From Treponema sp. (GTDB lineage Bacteria; Spirochaetota; Spirochaetia; Treponematales; Breznakiellaceae): DNA of 44,677 nucleotides. The position numbers and the translations under genes are program-made. The notes under the pieces are model-generated. The model saw nothing but the letters and a program-made list of their open reading frames with translations. It was not told the DNA's origin and did not search any database. This document shows, piece after piece, positions 173-36,475 of this stretch. The stretch is from positions 1-44,677 of the forward strand of contig JAITRH010000199.1 in assembly GCA_031288495.1 (NCBI GenBank). The letters are read 5' to 3'. Position 1 is the stretch's first letter. Each line of letters opens with the position of its first letter.

Positions 173-2917
173 TTAGAACCGGCCCCGGTTCTTATGTGGA
201 ACCGTCCCTTCCGGTGCAGGGTTCAAATATGCCTTCGCCGCTTCTTTCACCGCCTCCTCAATCGGGCGGTAGGTCGTATAGGTGCTAATCCCCAGGGTAC
301 GGAACCGGTTCCTGGGGGCTTCCCCTATGCGCAGAGCTATAACGCCGTTACAGTCTCCGATGGTTTTTACCATAGTATCCATGAGGTTTTCTTTTGCCCC
401 CCGGTCCCCGGTACAATAGGTGAGGGCCTTCCTGAATTCCTTAAAACGGGCTTCACCGTCCTGCCATTCGTAGATGTAGAAGGCCTCGGCATGGCCGAAG
501 TGCTGATCCACCAGCACCCCGCCTCGGGACGAGACGGCAAAGCGCAGCGTCCTGTCCGCAGGGACGGCTTCTAAGCCGGCGGTTCCGCTCCTGTCCGTTG
601 CGAGGATTGCTTCGGCAGTTCTACCCTCCGCCTCTTCCCCCAGTTCCCCGGAACGGTCCCAATCCAGAGTACCCGCCGCGTCCGCCCGGCAGCGGCGGCA
701 GTGATACATCTGGGGGATCCGGGATGCGCAGCTCTTACGCAAGTCCATGATTTCCCGGCTGCTCAGCATGGACGCCTTTTCAAAGGCGGTGCCTGCTACC
801 GGAATGAGCTGCATGATATTGAAGAGATCCGCCCCCAGTTCCCGCACCTTCTCCGCTATGGCCGGGAGCTGATCCGCGTTAATACCCTTGAGGGCCACCG
901 CATTTACCTTGCAGACCATCCCGAGCTCCCGCAGCCGGCGTATCCCTGCCAGTTGGTTGGCCAGAAGCAGGGCCGCCCCGGTTTCCCCGGTGTACCGTTC
1001 ACCCTGATAGTCCACATGGCGGTAAATCTGCGCCCCTATCCGCGGGTGAAGGGCATTCACCGTTACCGTTACATGGGAAACCCCCAATCCGGCAAGCTCC
1101 TCCGCATAGAAGGGGAGCAGGAGGCCGTTGGTAGAAAGGCAGAAGATCGCCTCAGGATCGGATCGCCTGATAAGGGTCAGGGTTTCCCGGGTCTTTTCAA
1201 AATCCGCAAGGCTGTCCCCGGGACCGGCTATGCCCGCTACGGTAATCTCCGGCATAAGTTCCTTTGCCCTGAGGTACCGTTCCAGGGCCTTAGCCGGGGA
1301 CGCCGCCGCCGCGGTAAGACCGGGACGGCTTTCATTGGTACAACCGTACATACGGATACAGTAATTACATTGGATATTGCAGTGTACCGCTACGGGCAGA
1401 TGGATTCTCCCCTGGGTGCCGCCGCATCCGGAGAAGCAGGGATGCGCCGTGCTTTTCCGCAGGTTGAGAGCCCTGCTCGTTTCCTGAATCACCGGGGCCG
1501 TTTCCCGGATCTCCGGGGACTCTTCGGGTTCCGCTGCCCCGGGAGCCCCGCCGCGGTAATAGTTCCGGTAGAGCTCTTGCCTGAAATGGCGCTCGGTTTC
1601 CCCCAGGATGGTATTGGTGATCCGGTCAAGCAGGGTTAATCCCCCATAGCCCAGAGTACGGATACGCTGCCCCCCTACCTGATCGTGGATAGGGAAGGCG
1701 CAGCGTACCAGGGGTATGCCCAGACGCTCCTCTATGCGCCTGCCCTCTGAACTGCCGATGAGTATATTCACCCCATAGTCCCCGGCCAGTTCCTCAAGGG
1801 CGTCAAAATCACGGTCATCCATAACCGCGGTCTTTTGATCCCCATGAAATTCCCTGACGGGGGCCAGTTCTTCTTCCAGCAGGGCCGTAAACCCGGGGCA
1901 GGGGGAACCGGTCAGGGCAAGCGCGGGGAGGGCCCCGTTTTCCATGAGGAGCCGGCAGAGGGAATAGACAAAATCCGGTTCCCCAAATACCGCCGCCGCA
2001 ATACGGGCGTTGTACTTGTGGGAATCCACCATGGCATCCAGATACCGGCCCCGCTCTTTTCTTAAGTCTTCCGTAACCCGTCCCCCCAGGTCTTCCAGCA
2101 GCCGGATCAGGCGATCCGTATCACGGAGCCCTATGGGAAGGGGGGAACGCAGCAGAGGAACGCCGTAGGCGGCTTCCAGATAGCGTCCGGGGGAACAGTC
2201 CTCTTCGATGAAGGAACTCAGTTCAATGGTACACCGGGCGCCGGCCATAGAGGCGATCTCCTCAAGGCCGGTCCCCGCGGCGGAAAGACGACGGTACACC
2301 TGCTCGTGGGGGCCGTCCAGGTTCTCCGAAAGATCCGGGAGGAGGGTTACCCCTAGGCCCATCTCTTTGAAAAGACCTTTAAGGAAGCGGGTATCCGCGG
2401 GGCTTATCATGCCGGTGATGATATTCACCCTGTCCTTGAACGGCCCCTTCATTTCGGTCTGCTCCACCAGCGCCCGCAGGGCCCTAAAAAAACCCTCGTA
2501 CTGGGTACCTCCGTATCCGGGAGAGTGCACGGTGATGATCTTGGTACGTACCTGGGGGCGCTCTGTAAGAAAATCCCGGACCATTCTATCCACATCTTCC
2601 CCTATGGTTTCCGCAAGGCAGGTGGTAGAAAGCCCTATTACCTGGGGATCGTAGAGTTTGATGAGATTATCCAGCCCTTTCACCAGGTTCTTCTCCCCGC
2701 CGAACACCGTCCCCTCCTCGGTGAGGGATGAGGATGCAATATCCACGGGTTCGTTATAATGGGTGGCCATGTGCCGCCTGATATAGGTGGCGCAGCCTTG
2801 GGAGCCGTGGAGTATATTCATACAGCCCCGTATGCCGCAAAAGGCGCCGACACTTCCCATGGGCATACACATCTTGCAGGGATTGCTATTCAAATGAACA
2901 AGATTCTTACGCATCAT
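173..2917 (-). CDS. nifN-nifB: NifN-NifB-NifX-like fusion protein (FeMo-cofactor scaffold, radical-SAM NifB and dinitrogenase cofactor-binding domain)
   Basis: N-terminal NifN features (NPCKMCMPMGSVGAFCGIRGCMNILHGSQGC, STTCLAETIGEDV); central NifB features (HPCFSGCGGTQGRIHLPVAVHCNIQCNYCIRMYGCTNESRPG, with CxxxCxxC); C-terminal LRFAVSSRGGVLVDQHFGHAEAFYIYEW typical of NifX/NafY/NifB-tail domains. One uninterrupted ORF. Confidence 0.95.
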   Translation of the reverse strand: MMRKNLVHLNSNPCKMCMPMGSVGAFCGIRGCMNILHGSQGCATYIRRHMATHYNEPVDIASSSLTEEGTVFGGEKNLVKGLDNLIKLYDPQVIGLSTTCLAETIGEDVDRMVRDFLTERPQVRTKIITVHSPGYGGTQYEGFFRALRALVEQTEMKGPFKDRVNIITGMISPADTRFLKGLFKEMGLGVTLLPDLSENLDGPHEQVYRRLSAAGTGLEEIASMAGARCTIELSSFIEEDCSPGRYLEAAYGVPLLRSPLPIGLRDTDRLIRLLEDLGGRVTEDLRKERGRYLDAMVDSHKYNARIAAAVFGEPDFVYSLCRLLMENGALPALALTGSPCPGFTALLEEELAPVREFHGDQKTAVMDDRDFDALEELAGDYGVNILIGSSEGRRIEERLGIPLVRCAFPIHDQVGGQRIRTLGYGGLTLLDRITNTILGETERHFRQELYRNYYRGGAPGAAEPEESPEIRETAPVIQETSRALNLRKSTAHPCFSGCGGTQGRIHLPVAVHCNIQCNYCIRMYGCTNESRPGLTAAAASPAKALERYLRAKELMPEITVAGIAGPGDSLADFEKTRETLTLIRRSDPEAIFCLSTNGLLLPFYAEELAGLGVSHVTVTVNALHPRIGAQIYRHVDYQGERYTGETGAALLLANQLAGIRRLRELGMVCKVNAVALKGINADQLPAIAEKVRELGADLFNIMQLIPVAGTAFEKASMLSSREIMDLRKSCASRIPQMYHCRRCRADAAGTLDWDRSGELGEEAEGRTAEAILATDRSGTAGLEAVPADRTLRFAVSSRGGVLVDQHFGHAEAFYIYEWQDGEARFKEFRKALTYCTGDRGAKENLMDTMVKTIGDCNGVIALRIGEAPRNRFRTLGISTYTTYRPIEEAVKEAAKAYLNPAPEGTVPHKNRGRF

Positions 2918-2923
2918 CCTTTC

Positions 2924-4255
2924 CTATAAAAATTGCCAAACCGGGCTATTCATGGAAAGATGAATCTCCCGCATAAAATGAGCCGTCCCTTCGTAACCTG
3001 CCAGGGCGTGTTTGCGCTCGTGGTTATGATCGCAGAAGGCTATGCCCAGCTTATAGGCCAGGGGCCGTTCCTTAACGCCGCCGACCAGAATATCCGCCCC
3101 CTTCTCCCGCATAAACGATGCCAGTTCCGCGGGGGTGGCGTCGTCCAGGACTACCGCATCATCACCCACGAGGCTTCCGATGATCTCGTAATCCTCCTTT
3201 TGGCCGGTCTGGGTTCCCACTACCACGGTTTCCATGCCCAGGGAGGTAAACTGCCGGATAAGGGAGATTGCCTTAAAGCCGCCGCCCACATAGACCGCCG
3301 CTTTCTTCCCCCTCAAATGGGGAAGGTATCTTTCCACGAGGGGCTGTAAAGCCGCTTCCTGCTTCCGGCAAAAGGCTTCCGCCTTCTCCCGGGCCGGCTC
3401 ATCCCCCAAGGCTTCGGCTATACGCAGCAGCGAGGAAGAGGTATCCCCAATGCCGAAGAAGCTGACCTTGATATAGGGGATACCCATCTCTTCCTCCATA
3501 CGCCTGGCCAGGTAGGTCATGGACCCCGCGCACTGTACCAGGTTGAGCTTTGCCCCGGGCGCCCTGATGAGGGTTTCGTAGGATGCGTCCCCCGTAACCG
3601 TAGATACCACCGGTATACCCAGGGCTTTCAGATAATTGGCGATGATCCATATCTCCCCGGCAAGGTTAAAGTCCCCAAGGATGTTAACCCCCCTGCCGGC
3701 GTTTCCCACGGGCAGGGCGTGGGGGCGTATCAGTTCCATGATGGCATTGCAGGCCATACGGTAGCCGAAGGACTTGTTCCCCGAAAACCCCGGGGACTTT
3801 ACCGGAATAACCCGTATAGCGTGGCGTTTTTCCGCAGCCCGGCACACCGCTTCTACATCGTCCCCGATAACCCCCACAATGCAGGTGGCGTAGATAAAGA
3901 TAAGCCGGGGGTGGTACTGTTCCGCGGCCTCGTCAATTGCCCGGGTCAGTTTTTCCGTTCCGCCGAAGACTATATCCTCTTCCCGCAGATCCGTAGAGAA
4001 GCTCTGGCGGTAGAGTTCACTCCCGCTTGAAAGGCTCCCCCGGATATCCCAGGTATAGGATGCACACCCTATAGGGCCGTGGACTATATGGAACGCATCG
4101 GTGATGGGGTTCAGCACTACCCGGGCGCCGCAGTATACACAGGCGCGCTGGCTCACCGAACCGGAGACGCTGTTCTTGTCGCACCGTATCCCCGCGCCCT
4201 CTTTGCCGCGGCCTATGGAAACCTTCCGTTCCTCTAGTATTTCTACTGCTTCCAT
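2924..4255 (-). CDS. nifE: Nitrogenase cofactor biosynthesis protein NifE
   Basis: RACVYCGARVVLNPITDAFHIVHGPIGCASYTWDIRG and IFIYATCIVGVIGDDV; position between nifK and nifN. Confidence 0.95.
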   Translation of the reverse strand: MEAVEILEERKVSIGRGKEGAGIRCDKNSVSGSVSQRACVYCGARVVLNPITDAFHIVHGPIGCASYTWDIRGSLSSGSELYRQSFSTDLREEDIVFGGTEKLTRAIDEAAEQYHPRLIFIYATCIVGVIGDDVEAVCRAAEKRHAIRVIPVKSPGFSGNKSFGYRMACNAIMELIRPHALPVGNAGRGVNILGDFNLAGEIWIIANYLKALGIPVVSTVTGDASYETLIRAPGAKLNLVQCAGSMTYLARRMEEEMGIPYIKVSFFGIGDTSSSLLRIAEALGDEPAREKAEAFCRKQEAALQPLVERYLPHLRGKKAAVYVGGGFKAISLIRQFTSLGMETVVVGTQTGQKEDYEIIGSLVGDDAVVLDDATPAELASFMREKGADILVGGVKERPLAYKLGIAFCDHNHERKHALAGYEGTAHFMREIHLSMNSPVWQFL

Positions 4256-4266
4256 ATCCTTATCTC

Positions 4267-5631
4267 CTACATGACCAGTTCCAGGTCTTCATCCGCCGCG
4301 TCCCTGTCCTGGCGGTCCATCAGCGCCTCGGTGATCTTTTCAAAGAGCCGCAATGCCCCCCGGTACCCAAGCAGGGGGAAATAGGAGTGGGCGTACCGAT
4401 CCAGGATAGGAAAGCCCACCCGTACAAAGGGAATATCCTCGGCCTTGGCGATCTGCTTGCCGTAGGAAGAGCCCAGCATAAGGTCTACCCCGTCGTTCTT
4501 GATCCACTGATGAAGGTCAAAGAGATCCGCGGAAGCCTTGGCGGTACAGCCGGCAAGGCCGTACCGGGAGAAAAGGCCCGTGGCCTTCCGCACAAAGGCA
4601 TCGCCGGGTGTACCGGTCATAACATATTTGGGTATCATGCCCATTTCGAGCACAAAGCCGGTGAGGGCCAGCACGGTGTCGGGATCCCCGAAAACCGCCA
4701 CGCATTTCCCTGAAAGGTAGAAATGGGCGTCCAGGATCACATCGATAAGCTGGCCCCGTTCTTCCTCAAGAGCGTAGGGAACTTCCCGACAGGCCCAGCG
4801 GGAAAGGGCTGTGAGCAAGGTATCGGTGTTCTCTATCCCGATGGGCAAAGGCACAAGATCATAAGGAACGGAGCACTGCCGGCTTAAGACCTCCGCCGGT
4901 TCTTCGCTGGTCAGTTCTCCCAGGGCAAAGACCCGGGGGCAGTCCCCAAGGCTCACGATCGCTTCAATTGTGGTCCCCCCGGGAGGATACATGACATAGT
5001 TCCCCGTCATGGGGGCATCCATCACCTCGCTCGTATCGGGGAAGAGGATAAAGGGAATCTCCATGAGCGTGAAGAGCCGCTTGAGTTCCCGCATATCCCC
5101 CGGATTTACAAAACCGGGGAAGACTCCCACCCTGTCATGGGGCTTCCCCCGGGATTTACTCAGGTATCGAATGAACCCCGCCATCATATTGTAGTAGCCG
5201 TTGATATGGCTTCCCACATAGCTCGGGGTATTGGTATGAACCACGAGCTTGCCCGGGGGAATTTCCATGTCCTGAATATACGCATTGAGGTCGTCTCCGA
5301 TCGTTTCGGAAAGACAGGTAGTATGCACCGCAATGATGTCGGGATCGTAGATATCGAAGATATTCTTCACCGCGGTTTTAAGGTTACTGCCGCCCCCGAA
5401 GACCGACGCCCCTTCGGTAAAGGAACTGGTAGAACCTATAGCGGGCTCTTTGAAGTGCCGGGACAGGTAGGTCCGGTGATAGGAACTGCACCCCTGGGAA
5501 CCGTGGCTGTGGGGCATACAGCGGTGTACCCCCAAGGCGGCATAGAGGGCGCCCACAGGCTGACAGGTCTTGCAGGGATTTATCCGCAGGGCGCTCCGCT
5601 GGTAGATCTCTTGGGGCGTGAGGTTAAGCAT
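4267..5631 (-). CDS. nifK: Nitrogenase MoFe protein beta subunit (short N-terminus type)
   Basis: RINPCKTCQPVGALYAALGVHRCMPHSHGSQGCSSYHRTYLSRHFKEPAIGSTSSFTEGASVFGG; VHTTCLSETIGDDL P-cluster motifs; 454 aa. Confidence 0.96.
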   Translation of the reverse strand: MLNLTPQEIYQRSALRINPCKTCQPVGALYAALGVHRCMPHSHGSQGCSSYHRTYLSRHFKEPAIGSTSSFTEGASVFGGGSNLKTAVKNIFDIYDPDIIAVHTTCLSETIGDDLNAYIQDMEIPPGKLVVHTNTPSYVGSHINGYYNMMAGFIRYLSKSRGKPHDRVGVFPGFVNPGDMRELKRLFTLMEIPFILFPDTSEVMDAPMTGNYVMYPPGGTTIEAIVSLGDCPRVFALGELTSEEPAEVLSRQCSVPYDLVPLPIGIENTDTLLTALSRWACREVPYALEEERGQLIDVILDAHFYLSGKCVAVFGDPDTVLALTGFVLEMGMIPKYVMTGTPGDAFVRKATGLFSRYGLAGCTAKASADLFDLHQWIKNDGVDLMLGSSYGKQIAKAEDIPFVRVGFPILDRYAHSYFPLLGYRGALRLFEKITEALMDRQDRDAADEDLELVM

Positions 5632-7225
5632 CGGTGTCCTCCTTTACGGCAGCTTCCAGCATGGGCTTATTCTTCCAGGGCGGGGCAATAAGCCTCCAGG
5701 CAGGGGCATAGATCCCCATAGTAATATCCCGGGCAAAGTTGACGGCCCCCTGGAACCCCGCATAGGGCCCCGAATAATCGTAGGAGTGAAGCTGCCGCGA
5801 CAAAACCCCCGCCTTTTGCAGCATGTATTTATCCTTGATGCCGGAGAAGAAAATATCCGGCTTGAGTTGGGCAAGGAATGCTTCCGTCTCGTAATGGTTA
5901 AGATCGTCCACCACATAGGAGCCGGTTTTCATATCGGGAATGAGCCCCCGGTAATCCTCCAACTGTATCGTGCCTTTCAGTTCCGCATAGCGTTCCGGTG
6001 TCAGATAGGAATGGTACGCGGCCTCGTCCTTTTTTACCACCAGATGTTCGATGTTCTTGTTATCCGCATCTTCCTTGATGGTAGGGATCACCTTGCGGCC
6101 CTCGTAGTCGTCGCGGTGGGCAAACTCATGCCCTGCAAGAACCGTGGTAACGCCGAAATCCGCCAGGAGGTACTGGTAGTGGTGCGCCCGGGATCCTCCC
6201 ACATAGAGGGCGGCTGTTTTACCCTGGAGCTTTTCCCGGTAGTAATCCCGGGCCTCCGTAATCTGGGCCAGTTCGTCGGCGATCACCTCCTCGGTGCGCC
6301 GGATCAGATCCTCATTGCCGAAATAGGCCGCTATTTCCCGCAGGGAGACCAGCGTGGCGTCTATGCCGATAAAGTTGATCTTGAGCCAGTCAATGCCGTA
6401 CTTGGTCTTCATCATCTCGGCAATATAGTTGATGGATCTATGGCACTGAACCAGATTGAGGTTCGCAAGATGCGCGTTTTTCAGTTCCTCGTAGCTGCCG
6501 TCCCCGGTCATCACCGACACGACCTCGTAGCCTATGCGCTTGAGGAGCCGCTCGGTTTCCCAGCCGTCGCCGCCGATGTTGTATTCACCGAGAATGTTCA
6601 GCGCATACCGGGTCTTGGGGGCCTTATCCCCGGTACCGATAACCCGGCGCATCAGGGTGTTGTTGGCGATATGGTGGCCTGCGCTCTGGCTTACCCCCTT
6701 GTAGCCCTCGCAGCTATAGGCCATACACTGGATGCCGTAAAGCGTTTCGGTTTCCGCGGCTACCGCATGAATATCATCACCGATAAGCCCTACAGGACAG
6801 GTAGAACAGATCATGATACACCCAGGATGAAAGATATCCACCGCTTCCTTGATAGCCTGCCGGAGTTTCTTTTCACCGCCGAATACGATATCCGGTTCCT
6901 GCATATCCGTAGAAAAACAGTATTGGATGTAAGCGCCGGTCTCGGAGCGCGCCTTGTTCCGCCGGGTTCCCCAGGCATAGTAGCTGCACCCTATAGGGCC
7001 GTGTACCAGGACCAGCACATCCTTGAGGGGGCCAAGAACCACCCCCTTACACCCCGCATAACAGCAGCCCCGCATGGTCATGATCCCCGGTATGGTCCGG
7101 TTATTGGCGGCGATATGCTGATCCGGCTTTGTCTCGTCTACCTCGACTATATGTTCCTTCCGGTTTTTATAGACCCTGGCGCTGTACTTGTCCAGCACGG
7201 TGGTTTTAACCTTATTCACTTGCAC
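5624..7225 (-). CDS. nifD: Nitrogenase MoFe protein alpha subunit
   Basis: GCCYAGCKGVVLGPLKDVLVLVHGPIGCSYYAWGTRRN; CSTCPVGLIGDDI; CEGYKGVSQSAGHHIANN; NLVQCHRSINYI; RQLHSYDYSGPYAGFQG. 533 aa with an extra segment resembling Clostridium pasteurianum NifD. Confidence 0.97.
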   Translation of the reverse strand: MQVNKVKTTVLDKYSARVYKNRKEHIVEVDETKPDQHIAANNRTIPGIMTMRGCCYAGCKGVVLGPLKDVLVLVHGPIGCSYYAWGTRRNKARSETGAYIQYCFSTDMQEPDIVFGGEKKLRQAIKEAVDIFHPGCIMICSTCPVGLIGDDIHAVAAETETLYGIQCMAYSCEGYKGVSQSAGHHIANNTLMRRVIGTGDKAPKTRYALNILGEYNIGGDGWETERLLKRIGYEVVSVMTGDGSYEELKNAHLANLNLVQCHRSINYIAEMMKTKYGIDWLKINFIGIDATLVSLREIAAYFGNEDLIRRTEEVIADELAQITEARDYYREKLQGKTAALYVGGSRAHHYQYLLADFGVTTVLAGHEFAHRDDYEGRKVIPTIKEDADNKNIEHLVVKKDEAAYHSYLTPERYAELKGTIQLEDYRGLIPDMKTGSYVVDDLNHYETEAFLAQLKPDIFFSGIKDKYMLQKAGVLSRQLHSYDYSGPYAGFQGAVNFARDITMGIYAPAWRLIAPPWKNKPMLEAAVKEDTDA

Positions 7226-7237
7226 CTCTCCTCATGT

Positions 7238-7612
7238 TTAAAGTCCGCTTTCCCCGGTGCGGACCCCGTAGGTCTCGCCGGCGGGGAGTATAAAGATCCT
7301 GCCGTCCCCGGGATTCCCGGTCTGGTTTACCCTGATGATGGTCTTTACCGCCAGTTCCACCTGATCATCCTCGATAATCAGGGTGAAGAACCGTTTGGGG
7401 ATAAGCCGCATGCTTTCGGTAAGGGCTTCCCCTACATCGGATACGGGGAGTTCCCCGGTATTCACCACTATCTGAAGGGTGAGCGGATCCAGGTGTTTCT
7501 TCCCCCGGCCGAGGCATGGACGGCAGAGAAAGGCCGGAAACCCCGCATTGGCCAGAGCTTCCTTGGTCTCGTTCACCTTATTGGTTCTGATAAAGGTCAT
7601 TACTTCTTTCAT
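7238..7612 (-). CDS. nifI2: PII-family nitrogenase regulator NifI2
   Basis: GlnB-like fold signature (MKEVMTFIRTNKVNETKEALANAGFPAF, GDGRIFILPAGETYGVRTGESGL) located directly upstream of nifD. Confidence 0.92.
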   Translation of the reverse strand: MKEVMTFIRTNKVNETKEALANAGFPAFLCRPCLGRGKKHLDPLTLQIVVNTGELPVSDVGEALTESMRLIPKRFFTLIIEDDQVELAVKTIIRVNQTGNPGDGRIFILPAGETYGVRTGESGL

Positions 7613-7621
7613 GGCGCCGTC

Positions 7622-7948
7622 CTACAGGCCCTGCTTGCCGGTGCTGATGGTATAGGCATCCACCACAGGGCTGATAAAGATCCGGCCGTCCCCATAACGG
7701 CCCTTGTCGCCGGTTCTCGCATTCCGCATGATCACCTTCACGACATCATCTTTATCCTCGTCATTGATCACCATAAGCAGCATCTCCTTGGGTATCTCGT
7801 CATAATGAACATCCCCAACGGCAATTCCCTTCTGTTTGCCCCGTCCAAAAACATCCATCTTGGTAACCGCGGGAAAGCCCGCCGCCAGTAATTCGCTCAA
7901 GACTATTCCTACTTTTTCAGGCCGTATAATCGCCCGGACCAGTACCAT
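7622..7948 (-). CDS. nifI1: PII-family nitrogenase regulator NifI1
   Basis: MVLVRAIIRPEKVGIVLSELLAAGFPAVTKMDVFGRGKQKG and YGDGRIFISPVVDAYTISTGKQGL; located between nifH and nifI2. Confidence 0.93.
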   Translation of the reverse strand: MVLVRAIIRPEKVGIVLSELLAAGFPAVTKMDVFGRGKQKGIAVGDVHYDEIPKEMLLMVINDEDKDDVVKVIMRNARTGDKGRYGDGRIFISPVVDAYTISTGKQGL

Positions 7949-8033: not shown

Positions 8034-8870
<837 letters not shown>

Positions 8871-9280
8871 TTAAGCCTTGTAAAGCGGTTATAGATGTAT
8901 ATGAAATTCCATCGAAGGCTGGGGTTGCAGCATTTGACCTGTTGCCGGAGCCTCAAATTTATTAGATTTTTATACATTTTACCCCTTTTTTGCGGTTATT
9001 TATACGAAAATACCGTATATTTATTCAATGTTCAAGAGGTAAAGGTAATTTTTTTTAAAAAAACCGTGTTTTTTGCAACTCCAATCTATCCTGCGGCGGC
9101 GGATAGCCTGAGCATCCATTGAAAGGGGGATGCCCTGCGGGAAACCCGGATGACCCGGGACGTGGGGTTGTGCTGGCCTCCATCCTGTAAGCGCCAGGCC
9201 CGGCTCGATCGTATCCGCGAAAACAGGGGAAAGAGCGGGGCTCTCGATGGGCCGAGCGCGGAGCCGCGGAAACCAACGCC

Positions 9281-10192
9281 CTAAAAACCGCCGGCATACC
9301 CCGCCTTCTTGAGCGCGTCCCGGGACGCGAGGCTGACTTTGGAGCTGCCTTCGAAAACGTCGTAACCCCAGCCGCGCTCAATGGGCGCGATGTTCACCGT
9401 TACAAGGCTCTCACAGCCGCTAAACGCCTGCCCGCCAATCTCCGTAACGCTCTCCGGTATAGTAACGGACGCAAGGCTCCTACAGCCTCTAAATGCCTGC
9501 CCGCCAATCTCCGTAACGCCCTCCGGTATGGTAACGGACGCAAGGCTCCTACAGTCAGCAAACGCCATCGCGCCAATTACCGTAACGCCCTCCGGTATGG
9601 TAACGGACGCAAGGCTCTCACAGCCAGCAAACGCCATCGCGCCAATTATCGTAACACCCTCCGGTATGGTAACGGACGCAAGGCTCCTACAGCCCTGAAA
9701 CGCCCCCCTGCCAATTACCGTAACGCCCTCCGGTATGGTAACGGACGCAAGGCTCTCACAGTCACTAAACACCCATTCGCCAATCGCCGTAACGCCCTCC
9801 GGTATGGTAACGGACGCAAGGCTCCCGCAACCACTAAACGCCAACTCGCCAATCGCCGTAACGCCCTCCGGTATGACGACGGATACAAGGCTCCCGCAGC
9901 CCCAAAACGCCCGCGCGCCAATCACCGTAACGCCCTCCGGTATGGTAACGGACGCAAGGCTCCTACAGTCTCTAAACGCCATCCCGCCAATCTCCCGGAC
10001 AGGGAAGCCCTGTATGTCCGCCGGAATGACCACCGCGGCGCTTTTCCCCACATACCTCGTGATAACCACGCCGTCTCCGGCGGCGTTAAGATCCACCTCG
10101 AAGTCGCTTTCCGGGTTTGGCTTGGTTTGCCCATACCCCGCCAGCGCCGCCAGCATACAAGCGGCGATCAAACACAGGCTCTTTTTCTTCAT
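9281..10192 (-). CDS. BspA-like leucine-rich repeat (LRR_5/TpLRR) protein, probably exported
   Basis: About eight near-identical 23-aa repeats (C[R/E/G]SLASVTIPEGVTxIGxxAF); N-terminal MKKKSLCLIAACMLAALAGYG looks like a signal peptide or lipoprotein leader. Start taken at the internal ATG ending at 10192; the ORF track extends to 10255. Confidence 0.85.
   Translation of the reverse strand: MKKKSLCLIAACMLAALAGYGQTKPNPESDFEVDLNAAGDGVVITRYVGKSAAVVIPADIQGFPVREIGGMAFRDCRSLASVTIPEGVTVIGARAFWGCGSLVSVVIPEGVTAIGELAFSGCGSLASVTIPEGVTAIGEWVFSDCESLASVTIPEGVTVIGRGAFQGCRSLASVTIPEGVTIIGAMAFAGCESLASVTIPEGVTVIGAMAFADCRSLASVTIPEGVTEIGGQAFRGCRSLASVTIPESVTEIGGQAFSGCESLVTVNIAPIERGWGYDVFEGSSKVSLASRDALKKAGYAGGF
9390..9990 (-). 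repeat. 69-bp tandem repeats encoding the LRR units
   Basis: Repeated 'gtaacgccctccggtatggtaacggacgcaaggctc' on the plus strand at ~69-bp spacing, high nucleotide identity. Confidence 0.9.
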
Positions 10193-11235: not shown

Positions 11236-11573
11236 GACCTGAAAGAGGACTTCGTAAAACGCCGAAGCCGGAGCGTTGGTACGGGTAACGCGGCATTGCC
11301 CCGGAGTGTTGCTTCACAAAAGGCCACCCGAGGCGGGCGGGGTGGAATCCTTTGTGGCCGTCGGCGTCAAAAGCATTGGAATAATATAAGCCCTCCGAAT
11401 ACTGTATGCAAGCGGGATTGAAGTAATGCTATAGGAGAAATGAGTACGGGAGCTTCCCTTGTATCGTTTTAGCTCCGTCTTTATCCGGTAAGCCCATACG
11501 AAGGGCTACCCTGTAGCCTGCCGCCCTCCCCAAACCGGTGGAAGCTCGGGGTAAAACCGAGTATCATGGTTCC

Positions 11574-13214
11574 ATGAACGGAGTGTTGGAAAGTGAGGTA
11601 TCGCAAGCCTCCACTGAGGAGTGGGAACGGGCGGAATTGGAATTACTCTTTGATATAGCCCGAACCTTTGATAAGTATGTGGAACTGCGGAGCGCCTTAG
11701 GACCCCTCTTGAGCCTCCTTGAAATCCGGGCAGGCCTCACCTGGGGTATGGTAACCCTCTTGGATCGGTCCAGGGGGATATTAACAATAGAAGAAGCCTA
11801 TGGACTTTCCCCGGAAGAGAAGGAACGGGGCCGTTACCGGCTTGGAGAAGGCTTGGTGGGCCGGGTGTTTGAATCGGGACAGGCGATTATGGTGCAGGAT
11901 CTCGCTCAGGAAACCCGTTTTCTTAACCGGGCCAAGAACCGGACCAGGGCGGATATGGAGGGGCTCAGCTATTACTGTGTCCCCATCAAGTCCTATGGAG
12001 GGGTTATCGGCACCCTCAGCGCGGAACGCCGCATTCAGCATGATTCCTGCCATGAACGTTTAGAGATGCAGATGCGGAAGGATCGGGCCTTACTGGAGAA
12101 AGTCTCCGCTATCATCGCAGATTCAGCGAAGCTCCGGGAGCGGATTTTGGAAGAGCAGTTCCGGTGCCGGGAAGTTCAGGGGGATTCTCCGGGAGCGTCC
12201 TATTGCTCCGGCGATAGGTTCAGTCCTCAAGGCCGGGGTGGCCGGATCGTGAAAGGGAGCGCCATCATGGGGACGAGTAAGGCCATGCGGGGGGTTTACG
12301 AGATGCTCACCCAGGTGGCTCCCAGCGACGCCACGGTACTTATCACCGGGGAGAGCGGTACCGGTAAGGAACTGGTGGCGGTGGAGTTACACCGGCTTTC
12401 AAAGCGGGCCGGAGCGGCGCTGGTGAAGATAAACTGTGCGGCCCTGCCGGAATCAATTATTGAAAGTGAACTCTTTGGGCATGAAAAAGGGGCCTTTACC
12501 GGAGCCACCAGTCAACGCAAGGGCCGGTTTGAGCTGGCCCATCAGGGGACGATTTTTCTGGATGAAATCGGGGAGCTGCCGCCTCAGATCCAGGTAAAAC
12601 TCCTGCGGGTCCTGCAAGAACGGGAACTGGAACGGGTCGGCGGCACTGCTACCATCAAGGTCAATGTCCGGCTCATTGCGGCAACCAATAGGAATTTGGA
12701 GAAAGCGGTTACCGAGGGCCGGTTTCGGGAAGATCTGTACTACCGGCTCAATGTATTCCCCTTGCAGGTCCCCCCCTTACGGGAACGGAAGAGCGACATC
12801 GTCCTTTTAGCGGATCATTTTGCGGAAAAATACGCGGAAAAGAACGGTAAGCTCATCAAGCGGATATCCACTCCGGCGCTGGATTTACTCACCAGTTATT
12901 CCTGGCCCGGTAATGTCCGGGAATTGGAGAACTGTATCGAACGGGCGGTGATCCTTTCTAACGACAGGGTGATCCATGCCTATAACCTGCCTCCGAGTCT
13001 CCAATCCGCGGTTTCCACCAAAACCGAACCTATTACGACCCTGGAAGCGGCTCTTTCCCGGCTTGAAAAGGAACTCATCATCGAGGCGCTGAAGATCAGC
13101 GAAGGTAATATGGCGGCGGCAGCCCGCCGTCTGGGTATCACGGAACGGCAGATGGGGCTGCGGGTCCGCCATTACGGCATTAACTGGCGGCTCTACAGAT
13201 CCATAAAAATGTAA
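11574..13214 (+). CDS. nifA: NifA-type sigma54-dependent transcriptional activator (GAF - AAA+ - Fis HTH)
   Basis: GAF-like N-terminus; [11 protein letters not shown] Walker [41 protein letters not shown]-terminal [27 protein letters not shown]. Close to the nif operon. Start chosen at ATG 11574; the ORF track begins at 11538. Confidence 0.88.
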
Positions 13215-35987: not shown

Positions 35988-36102
35988 TAATCGGGGAATG
36001 GTTCCACCTAGCCCTAGCGTTCTCGACCTACTGGCAATAGGGAGCCTATTCCACCGAGCAAGTGGGGATGGTTCCAATGAGCAATCGGGATAGGGTTCCC
36101 AG
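35988..36102. repeat. Degenerate tandem array of 5 x 23 bp
   Basis: taatcggggaatggttccaccta / gccctagcgttctcgacctactg / gcaatagggagcctattccaccg / agcaagtggggatggttccaatg / agcaatcgggatagggttcccag. Confidence 0.75.
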
Positions 36103-36258
36103 GGTCAACAGGGTAAGGGGCCAGAAAACAAACGGGGTCCCCTCGGTCCGCCGGACCGGAGGTCCGGGATTACCCCGCTTTTTCGTTCAAAAGATCCTCG
36201 TAATCGGTGTGGGGCTTTAGCCCGCAATCGGTGGGCACCATTCCGTAACGTGTTGACC
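36103..36258. mobile_element. MITE-like dispersed repeat, copy 2 (terminal inverted repeats)
   Basis: GGTCAACAGGGTAAGG (36103-36118) and CCGTAACGTGTTGACC (36243-36258), imperfect TIRs matching at 13/16 positions; internal GGGCTTTAGCCC hairpin; interior similar to 7-147. Confidence 0.6.
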
Positions 36259-36475
36259 GTGGGTTTAGAACCCTCCATGAACCCGCATTTTCTTTCTGAC
36301 TGCCTACCGGCAGGGCGGCGATCTCCCTCTAACGGATCAAACGCCTTTAGGCGTCCTACTAAAGCGCCTTTAACAAGCCGGTTAAGCGCCTTGTACCGGA
36401 ACCGCCGCCTGCTCAGCGCTGAGCCACGGTGGGCAGGTGGTCAAAGGCCACGGTGCGGGGAAGCCGGCCCGGCTG

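Follow-up and report, generated by a model that had tools for sequence, protein, structure and literature searches.

A NifN-NifB-NifX fusion of clostridial type in the nif operon of a Treponema-like spirochaete

The window analysed here, a stretch of 44,677 nucleotides, is contig C82 of a MAG that is 83% complete and consists of 252 contigs. The host is a Treponema-like spirochaete of termite-gut type. At one end of the window lies a nif operon in the order nifH-nifI1-nifI2-nifD-nifK-nifE-nifN-B-X, with all genes on the minus strand and a gap of 6 bases between nifE, upstream, and the fusion gene. The features are as follows:

1-172, no strand assigned: dispersed repeat, directly 3' of the fusion gene
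173-2917, minus strand: nifN-B-X fusion gene, 914 aa, ATG start (ORF, Pfam, NCBIfam, motifs)
218-556, minus strand: NifX-like domain, aa 788-900, including His806 (HFGHA)
638-1444, minus strand: radical-SAM NifB domain, aa about 492-760, NifB motifs complete
1442-1573, minus strand: linker, aa 449-492, partly of low confidence (pLDDT < 50 at 456-479)
1568-2917, minus strand: NifN domain, aa 1-450, Oxidored_nitro at 17-437, P-cluster-type Cys 17, 42 and 100
2924-4255, minus strand: nifE, Cys 25, 39, 64, 125 and 242 (Pfam, NCBIfam, motifs)
4267-5631, minus strand: nifK (Pfam, NCBIfam)
5624-7225, minus strand: nifD, 533 aa (Pfam, NCBIfam)
7238-7612, minus strand: nifI2, P-II family (Pfam)
7622-7948, minus strand: nifI1, P-II family (Pfam)
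8034-8855, minus strand: nifH (Pfam, NCBIfam)
11538-13214, plus strand: NifA-like sigma-54 activator, conserved at the same place in the congener G008

A consensus scan for a sigma-54 promoter upstream of nifH performed no better than chance and yielded none in 8856-9300. A second copy of the dispersed repeat family is located at 36099-36263 of the window.

An earlier, sequence-only reading of this DNA had described an unbroken 914-aa frame with NifN, NifB and NifX parts at 173-2917. The ORF, Pfam and NCBIfam analyses confirm this description with exact coordinates, place the gene on the minus strand and find no internal stop codon. The three Pfam domains named in that reading were all detected above their curated cut-offs, namely Oxidored_nitro (17-437, E=3.6e-111), Radical_SAM (509-690, 1.4e-13) and Nitro_FeMo-Co (802-894, 8.9e-18), and the nifB model TIGR01290 (NCBIfam) matched aa 487-895, also above cut-off. 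The motif list given for NifB in PMC5715403 (Cx3Cx2C, ExRP, AGPG, TxTxN, Cx2CRxDAxG) is complete in the fused NifB, where we located HPC at 492, CNIQCNYC at 513, ExRP at 529, AGPG at 564, TxTxN at 617 and CxxCRxDAxG at 740. The NifX-like part contains HFGHA at 806, and His806 is likened to NifX His35 by motif, not by structure. Across the fusions in a 52-sequence alignment, the NifB cluster cysteines, NifN Cys17, Cys42 and Cys100, and His806 are invariant.

The NifN model TIGR01285 scored the fusion at 253.7 bits, below its cut-off of 326.8, and the nifK model TIGR01286 scored the NifN part at 273.5, also below its own cut-off. The TIGR01285 cut-off is a naming threshold rather than a defining trait of NifN, and we retain the NifN assignment because the phylogeny described below sets this part with other NifN, apart from NifK, and because a nifK and a nifE are already present in the operon. 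An AlphaFold2 model of the fusion as a single chain, built from the 52-row fusion alignment, comprises three confident units (mean pLDDT 83.3, pTM 0.55) connected by two linkers (456-479 and 762-787) modelled with low confidence. Given the pTM of 0.55, the model leaves the relative placement of the domains unsettled. Its best structural matches are NifK and NifN chains, followed by NifB (6y1x, 7bi7, 7jmb).

A protein search over 84,980 species genomes retrieved 192 related stretches, a set biased towards fusions because the query itself is a fusion. In all of the best 80 of these 192, a single ORF spans NifN and NifB, and nearly all include the NifX part; identity of the window fusion to these public fusions is 47-78%. 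Because 80/80 loci among the best 80 of 192 encode an unbroken fusion, a frame fusion produced by sequencing error was ruled out. Among the carriers of NifN-B fusions in the search are ten stretches (L120, L077, L116, L073, L043, L079, L084, L087, L090 and L092) whose labels include Actinomycetota, Thermodesulfobacteriota, Planctomycetota, Mycoplasmatota, Deferribacterota and Fibrobacterota. The short MAG contigs among these non-Firmicutes carriers may be misbinned; Gordonibacter sp. 28C (L120) is one such carrier that has no MAG label. In L116, the ORF match ends ahead of the NifX part.

The fused NifN has cysteine at all three positions of the NifK P-cluster ligands, in 80/80 fusions of the best 80 of 192, so that NifE (three) and the fused NifN (three) together present six P-cluster-type cysteines. 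NifN of A. vinelandii, by contrast, has Ser, Cys and Gly at these positions, that is, one cysteine (alignment to 3pdi_B), as does Paraburkholderia NifN. The separate NifN of Desulfovibrio and of native Treponema also have the three cysteines, so this is a trait of the lineage rather than of the fusion. P-cluster-type cysteines have already been reported for many NifEN, and the 'group II' NifEN have three NifE and three NifN cysteines as in the window (both from the available part of PMC11168457); accordingly, we rejected the six-cysteine NifEN as a novelty. The window differs in that its NifN is fused to NifB: the available part of PMC11168457 is silent on fusions and describes a six-cysteine NifEN as yet to be isolated.

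The host assignment of the operon rests on its two flanks. Beyond the operon, carB (13.4-16.8 kb) and an FtsX family gene (29.5-32.8 kb) are up to 95% and up to 87% identical, respectively, to genes of congeners. G008 has conserved both carB and the NifA-like gene (83-86% at the DNA level), and its similarity to the window ends at 11,531; a search for nif genes in this congener gave no match. On the other side, the repeat at 1-172 matches its own genome 46 times; across 39 other genomes of the order just three matches turn up, all short and partial, and G021, a second spirochaete genome discussed below, has none. With congener-like genes on one side and a genome-specific repeat on the other, both flanks belong to the host genome. 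It might still be argued that assembly or binning linked spirochaete DNA to a nif part from some other gut bacterium, such as a clostridium, given the fragmentation of the MAG, the position of the operon at a contig end, and the LRR repeat genes between nifH and the conserved flank. We consider such an artefact very improbable: the repeat begins directly past the stop codon of the fusion and is nearly absent elsewhere in the order, the flanking genes are 87-95% identical to those of congeners, and a second spirochaete MAG (G021, stretch L119) has the same operon with a fusion 78% identical to that of the window, too distant for cross-contamination.

Among the search matches, the nearest named relative that shares this operon is a Treponema MAG. 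L119, the closest relative (Treponema Kf353_bin43), appears to be the same contig as C33 of G021. The operon order in L119 is that of the window, and a 2Fe-2S ferredoxin gene followed by nifV(omega) comes after nifN-B. The earlier placement of the fusion at the end of the nif operon therefore did not hold: the fusion gene ends the contig but probably not the operon. In the host's own genome, a second copy of the fusion tail is found on C168, a contig of 3 kb, where it is followed by a ferredoxin gene, whose nearest curated model is fdxn_Clost, and by a split nifV, with nifV(omega) before nifV(alpha). Very likely C168 takes up the operon again on the far side of a repeat, through a putative join. 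The fusion 3'-end remnant on C168 (L012 2604-2714) encodes 37 aa, is 88% identical at the DNA level over 107 bases, and is surrounded by short tandem-like repeats.

Phylogenetic analysis bears directly on the origin of the operon. In the NifN tree, rooted with NifK as outgroup, all of the fusions sampled are united in a single clade (SH-aLRT 99) that sits on a long stem; within it, the window and L119 pair at 98 and are joined by L043 at 97. Native NifN of the family, including those of the congeners G006 and G009, fall outside this clade, and NifK of the window operon groups like the window NifN, not with the congeners. The trees of the NifB part match the NifN tree in outline, so that the comparison with clostridial NifN-B suggested by the sequence-only reading gave a concordant answer, both trees placing the window within the clostridial-type fusion clade. 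A tree constrained to put the NifB of the window and L119 next to native NifB could not be rejected (p-AU 0.095), which makes the depth at which the two branch within the fusion clade uncertain; because this test is not decisive, we judge the origin on the NifN tree. Some NifB-NifX proteins of the family that are not fused to NifN take different positions in the NifB trees: the careful tree nests them within the fusion clade at moderate support (82/86), the quick tree sets them just outside it. These proteins (L122, L123, L124, L125 and L126, from G044, G033, G042, G020 and G018) share about 50% identity with the fused NifB, and most of their genes adjoin nitrogenase-like rather than nif genes. 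They may be fission products or may represent the pre-fusion state.

Native nifN and nifB are adjacent in the family, and in G038 and G024 they are in frame with one stop codon between them, a configuration from which the fusion could have been born inside this spirochaete family if the stop codon of nifN was lost. The intervening codon is TAG in G038 (L130:6798-9560) and TGA in G024 (L024:1-2820). Such a local birth is hardly credible, however, because the window NifN groups with clostridial fusions on a long, strongly supported stem (SH-aLRT 99) and not with congener NifN, because NifK of the same operon behaves likewise, and because the congener NifN and NifB are just 40-43% identical to the window fusion. 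In the three congeners sampled, nifN and nifB are separate and distant from the fusion. We regard it as highly likely that the locus is a clostridial-type NifN-B-X in a group-III-type Mo-nitrogenase operon that was acquired horizontally by a Treponema-like spirochaete; the donor and the direction of transfer are what we infer. Two other Treponema MAGs (L066 and L117) group with termite-gut Fibrobacterota and Ruminiclostridium cellobioparum termitidis. A single origin of the four Treponema fusions was rejected (p-AU 5e-55), and at least two acquisitions therefore took place.

It had also been proposed that the fusion lets the organism do without separate nifB, nifN and nifX. For nifN this agrees with the genome, in that searches of the 83%-complete assembly found no second NifN. 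For nifB and nifX it is not supported: a stand-alone NifB of 313 aa with complete motifs (CNIQCRFC, EQRP, AGPG, TVTVN, CQHCRADAAG) is encoded on contig C180, a NifX-like gene is present in an HDK cluster on C64 (L010:6547-10729), with no nifB beside it, and a further NifX-like gene adjoins cysK on C30. Separate nifB and nifN elsewhere in the genome had been named as evidence against the proposal, and one of the two is there. The functions of NifB and NifX are thus not unique to the fusion, and the fusion may not be the sole source of NifB-co, given the motif-complete NifB on C180.

The C180 NifB gene lies beside cysK in a nitrogenase-like cluster (L009:12317-17140) that also includes genes resembling nifH, nifD and nifK. 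The best solved match of the C180 D protein is a methylthio-alkane reductase-type chain (9d9u/9fmg, E about 1e-59), and the D protein of C64 is a closer match to methylthio-alkane reductase (E=5e-123). The complete motif set of the C180 NifB would allow it to feed the nitrogenase, leaving the fused NifB redundant, either non-functional or specialised. This seems improbable to us: the fused NifB retains every residue for catalysis and cluster binding, the C180 gene sits among its own HDK-like genes by cysK, and MarB provides a comparable case of a dedicated NifB homologue, for methylthio-alkane reductase (PMC12552129). Were the product of the fused NifB to be channelled to NifEN, the nitrogenase-like enzymes would need the free NifB.

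The activity of the fusion is predicted from its sequence. The NifN part would combine with NifE into a NifEN scaffold, beside which the tethered radical-SAM NifB would convert paired [4Fe-4S] clusters to the 8Fe-9S-C L-cluster (NifB-co); the NifX-like domain, with His806, could bind the L-cluster and pass it on; and NifEN, with NifH and homocitrate, would turn the L-cluster into FeMo-co. Parts for each step are present: the NifB motifs, His806, and NifE Cys25 and Cys242 at their expected places. Cofactor channelling in the fusion is plausible by analogy and in keeping with what has been published on engineered NifEN-B. In Azotobacter NifEN-B, the SAM methyl group is transferred to the K-cluster en route to the L-cluster (PMC4535184), and NifEN-B' performs the work of both NifEN and NifB, with a tunnel predicted between them (PMC13031127). 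In these A. vinelandii constructs the NifN C-terminus is joined to the NifB N-terminus, as in the window; the window fusion differs in being natural and in keeping the NifX domain, which NifEN-B' is without. NifX passes NifB-co to NifE via a His and NifE Cys25 (PMC13128457), and in Klebsiella NifB the NifX-like domain is dispensable (PMC5715403). A bolder, rather unlikely extension is that NifE and NifN-B-X would hold an 8Fe P-cluster-like centre at their interface, with the L-cluster factory attached alongside; the resulting NifEN would load itself and be capable of both FeMo-co assembly and substrate reduction. If true, such an enzyme would resemble the supposed ancestor of nitrogenase.

As the sequence-only reading had recognised, fusion as such is not new, the three-domain architecture having been described in clostridia (PMC5715403). 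Three-domain NifB proteins are recorded for C. pasteurianum, C. acetobutylicum and C. beijerinckii (Chen et al. 2001, cited by PMC5715403), and the clostridial NifN-B has, like the window, NifN, radical SAM and NifX in this order in one chain. The operon order is shared as well, including the position of nifI1/nifI2 between nifH and nifD described for C. acetobutylicum and C. beijerinckii (PMC4246453), and the window fusion is 47-58% identical to the clostridial sequences. The host, in contrast, belongs to the Spirochaetota, whereas the three-domain architecture was described in 2017 as confined to Firmicutes (PMC5715403).

Taken together, what is added to a long-known architecture is evolutionary: a spirochaete carrier on a horizontally acquired nif operon. 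Natural six-cysteine fusions are candidates for tests of cofactor channelling and of P-cluster-bearing NifEN, none of which had been isolated according to the available part of PMC11168457. The natural range of the NifN-B-X architecture is extended to spirochaetes, and the results suggest that fused nif operons cross phyla in the termite gut, replacing native unfused ones.
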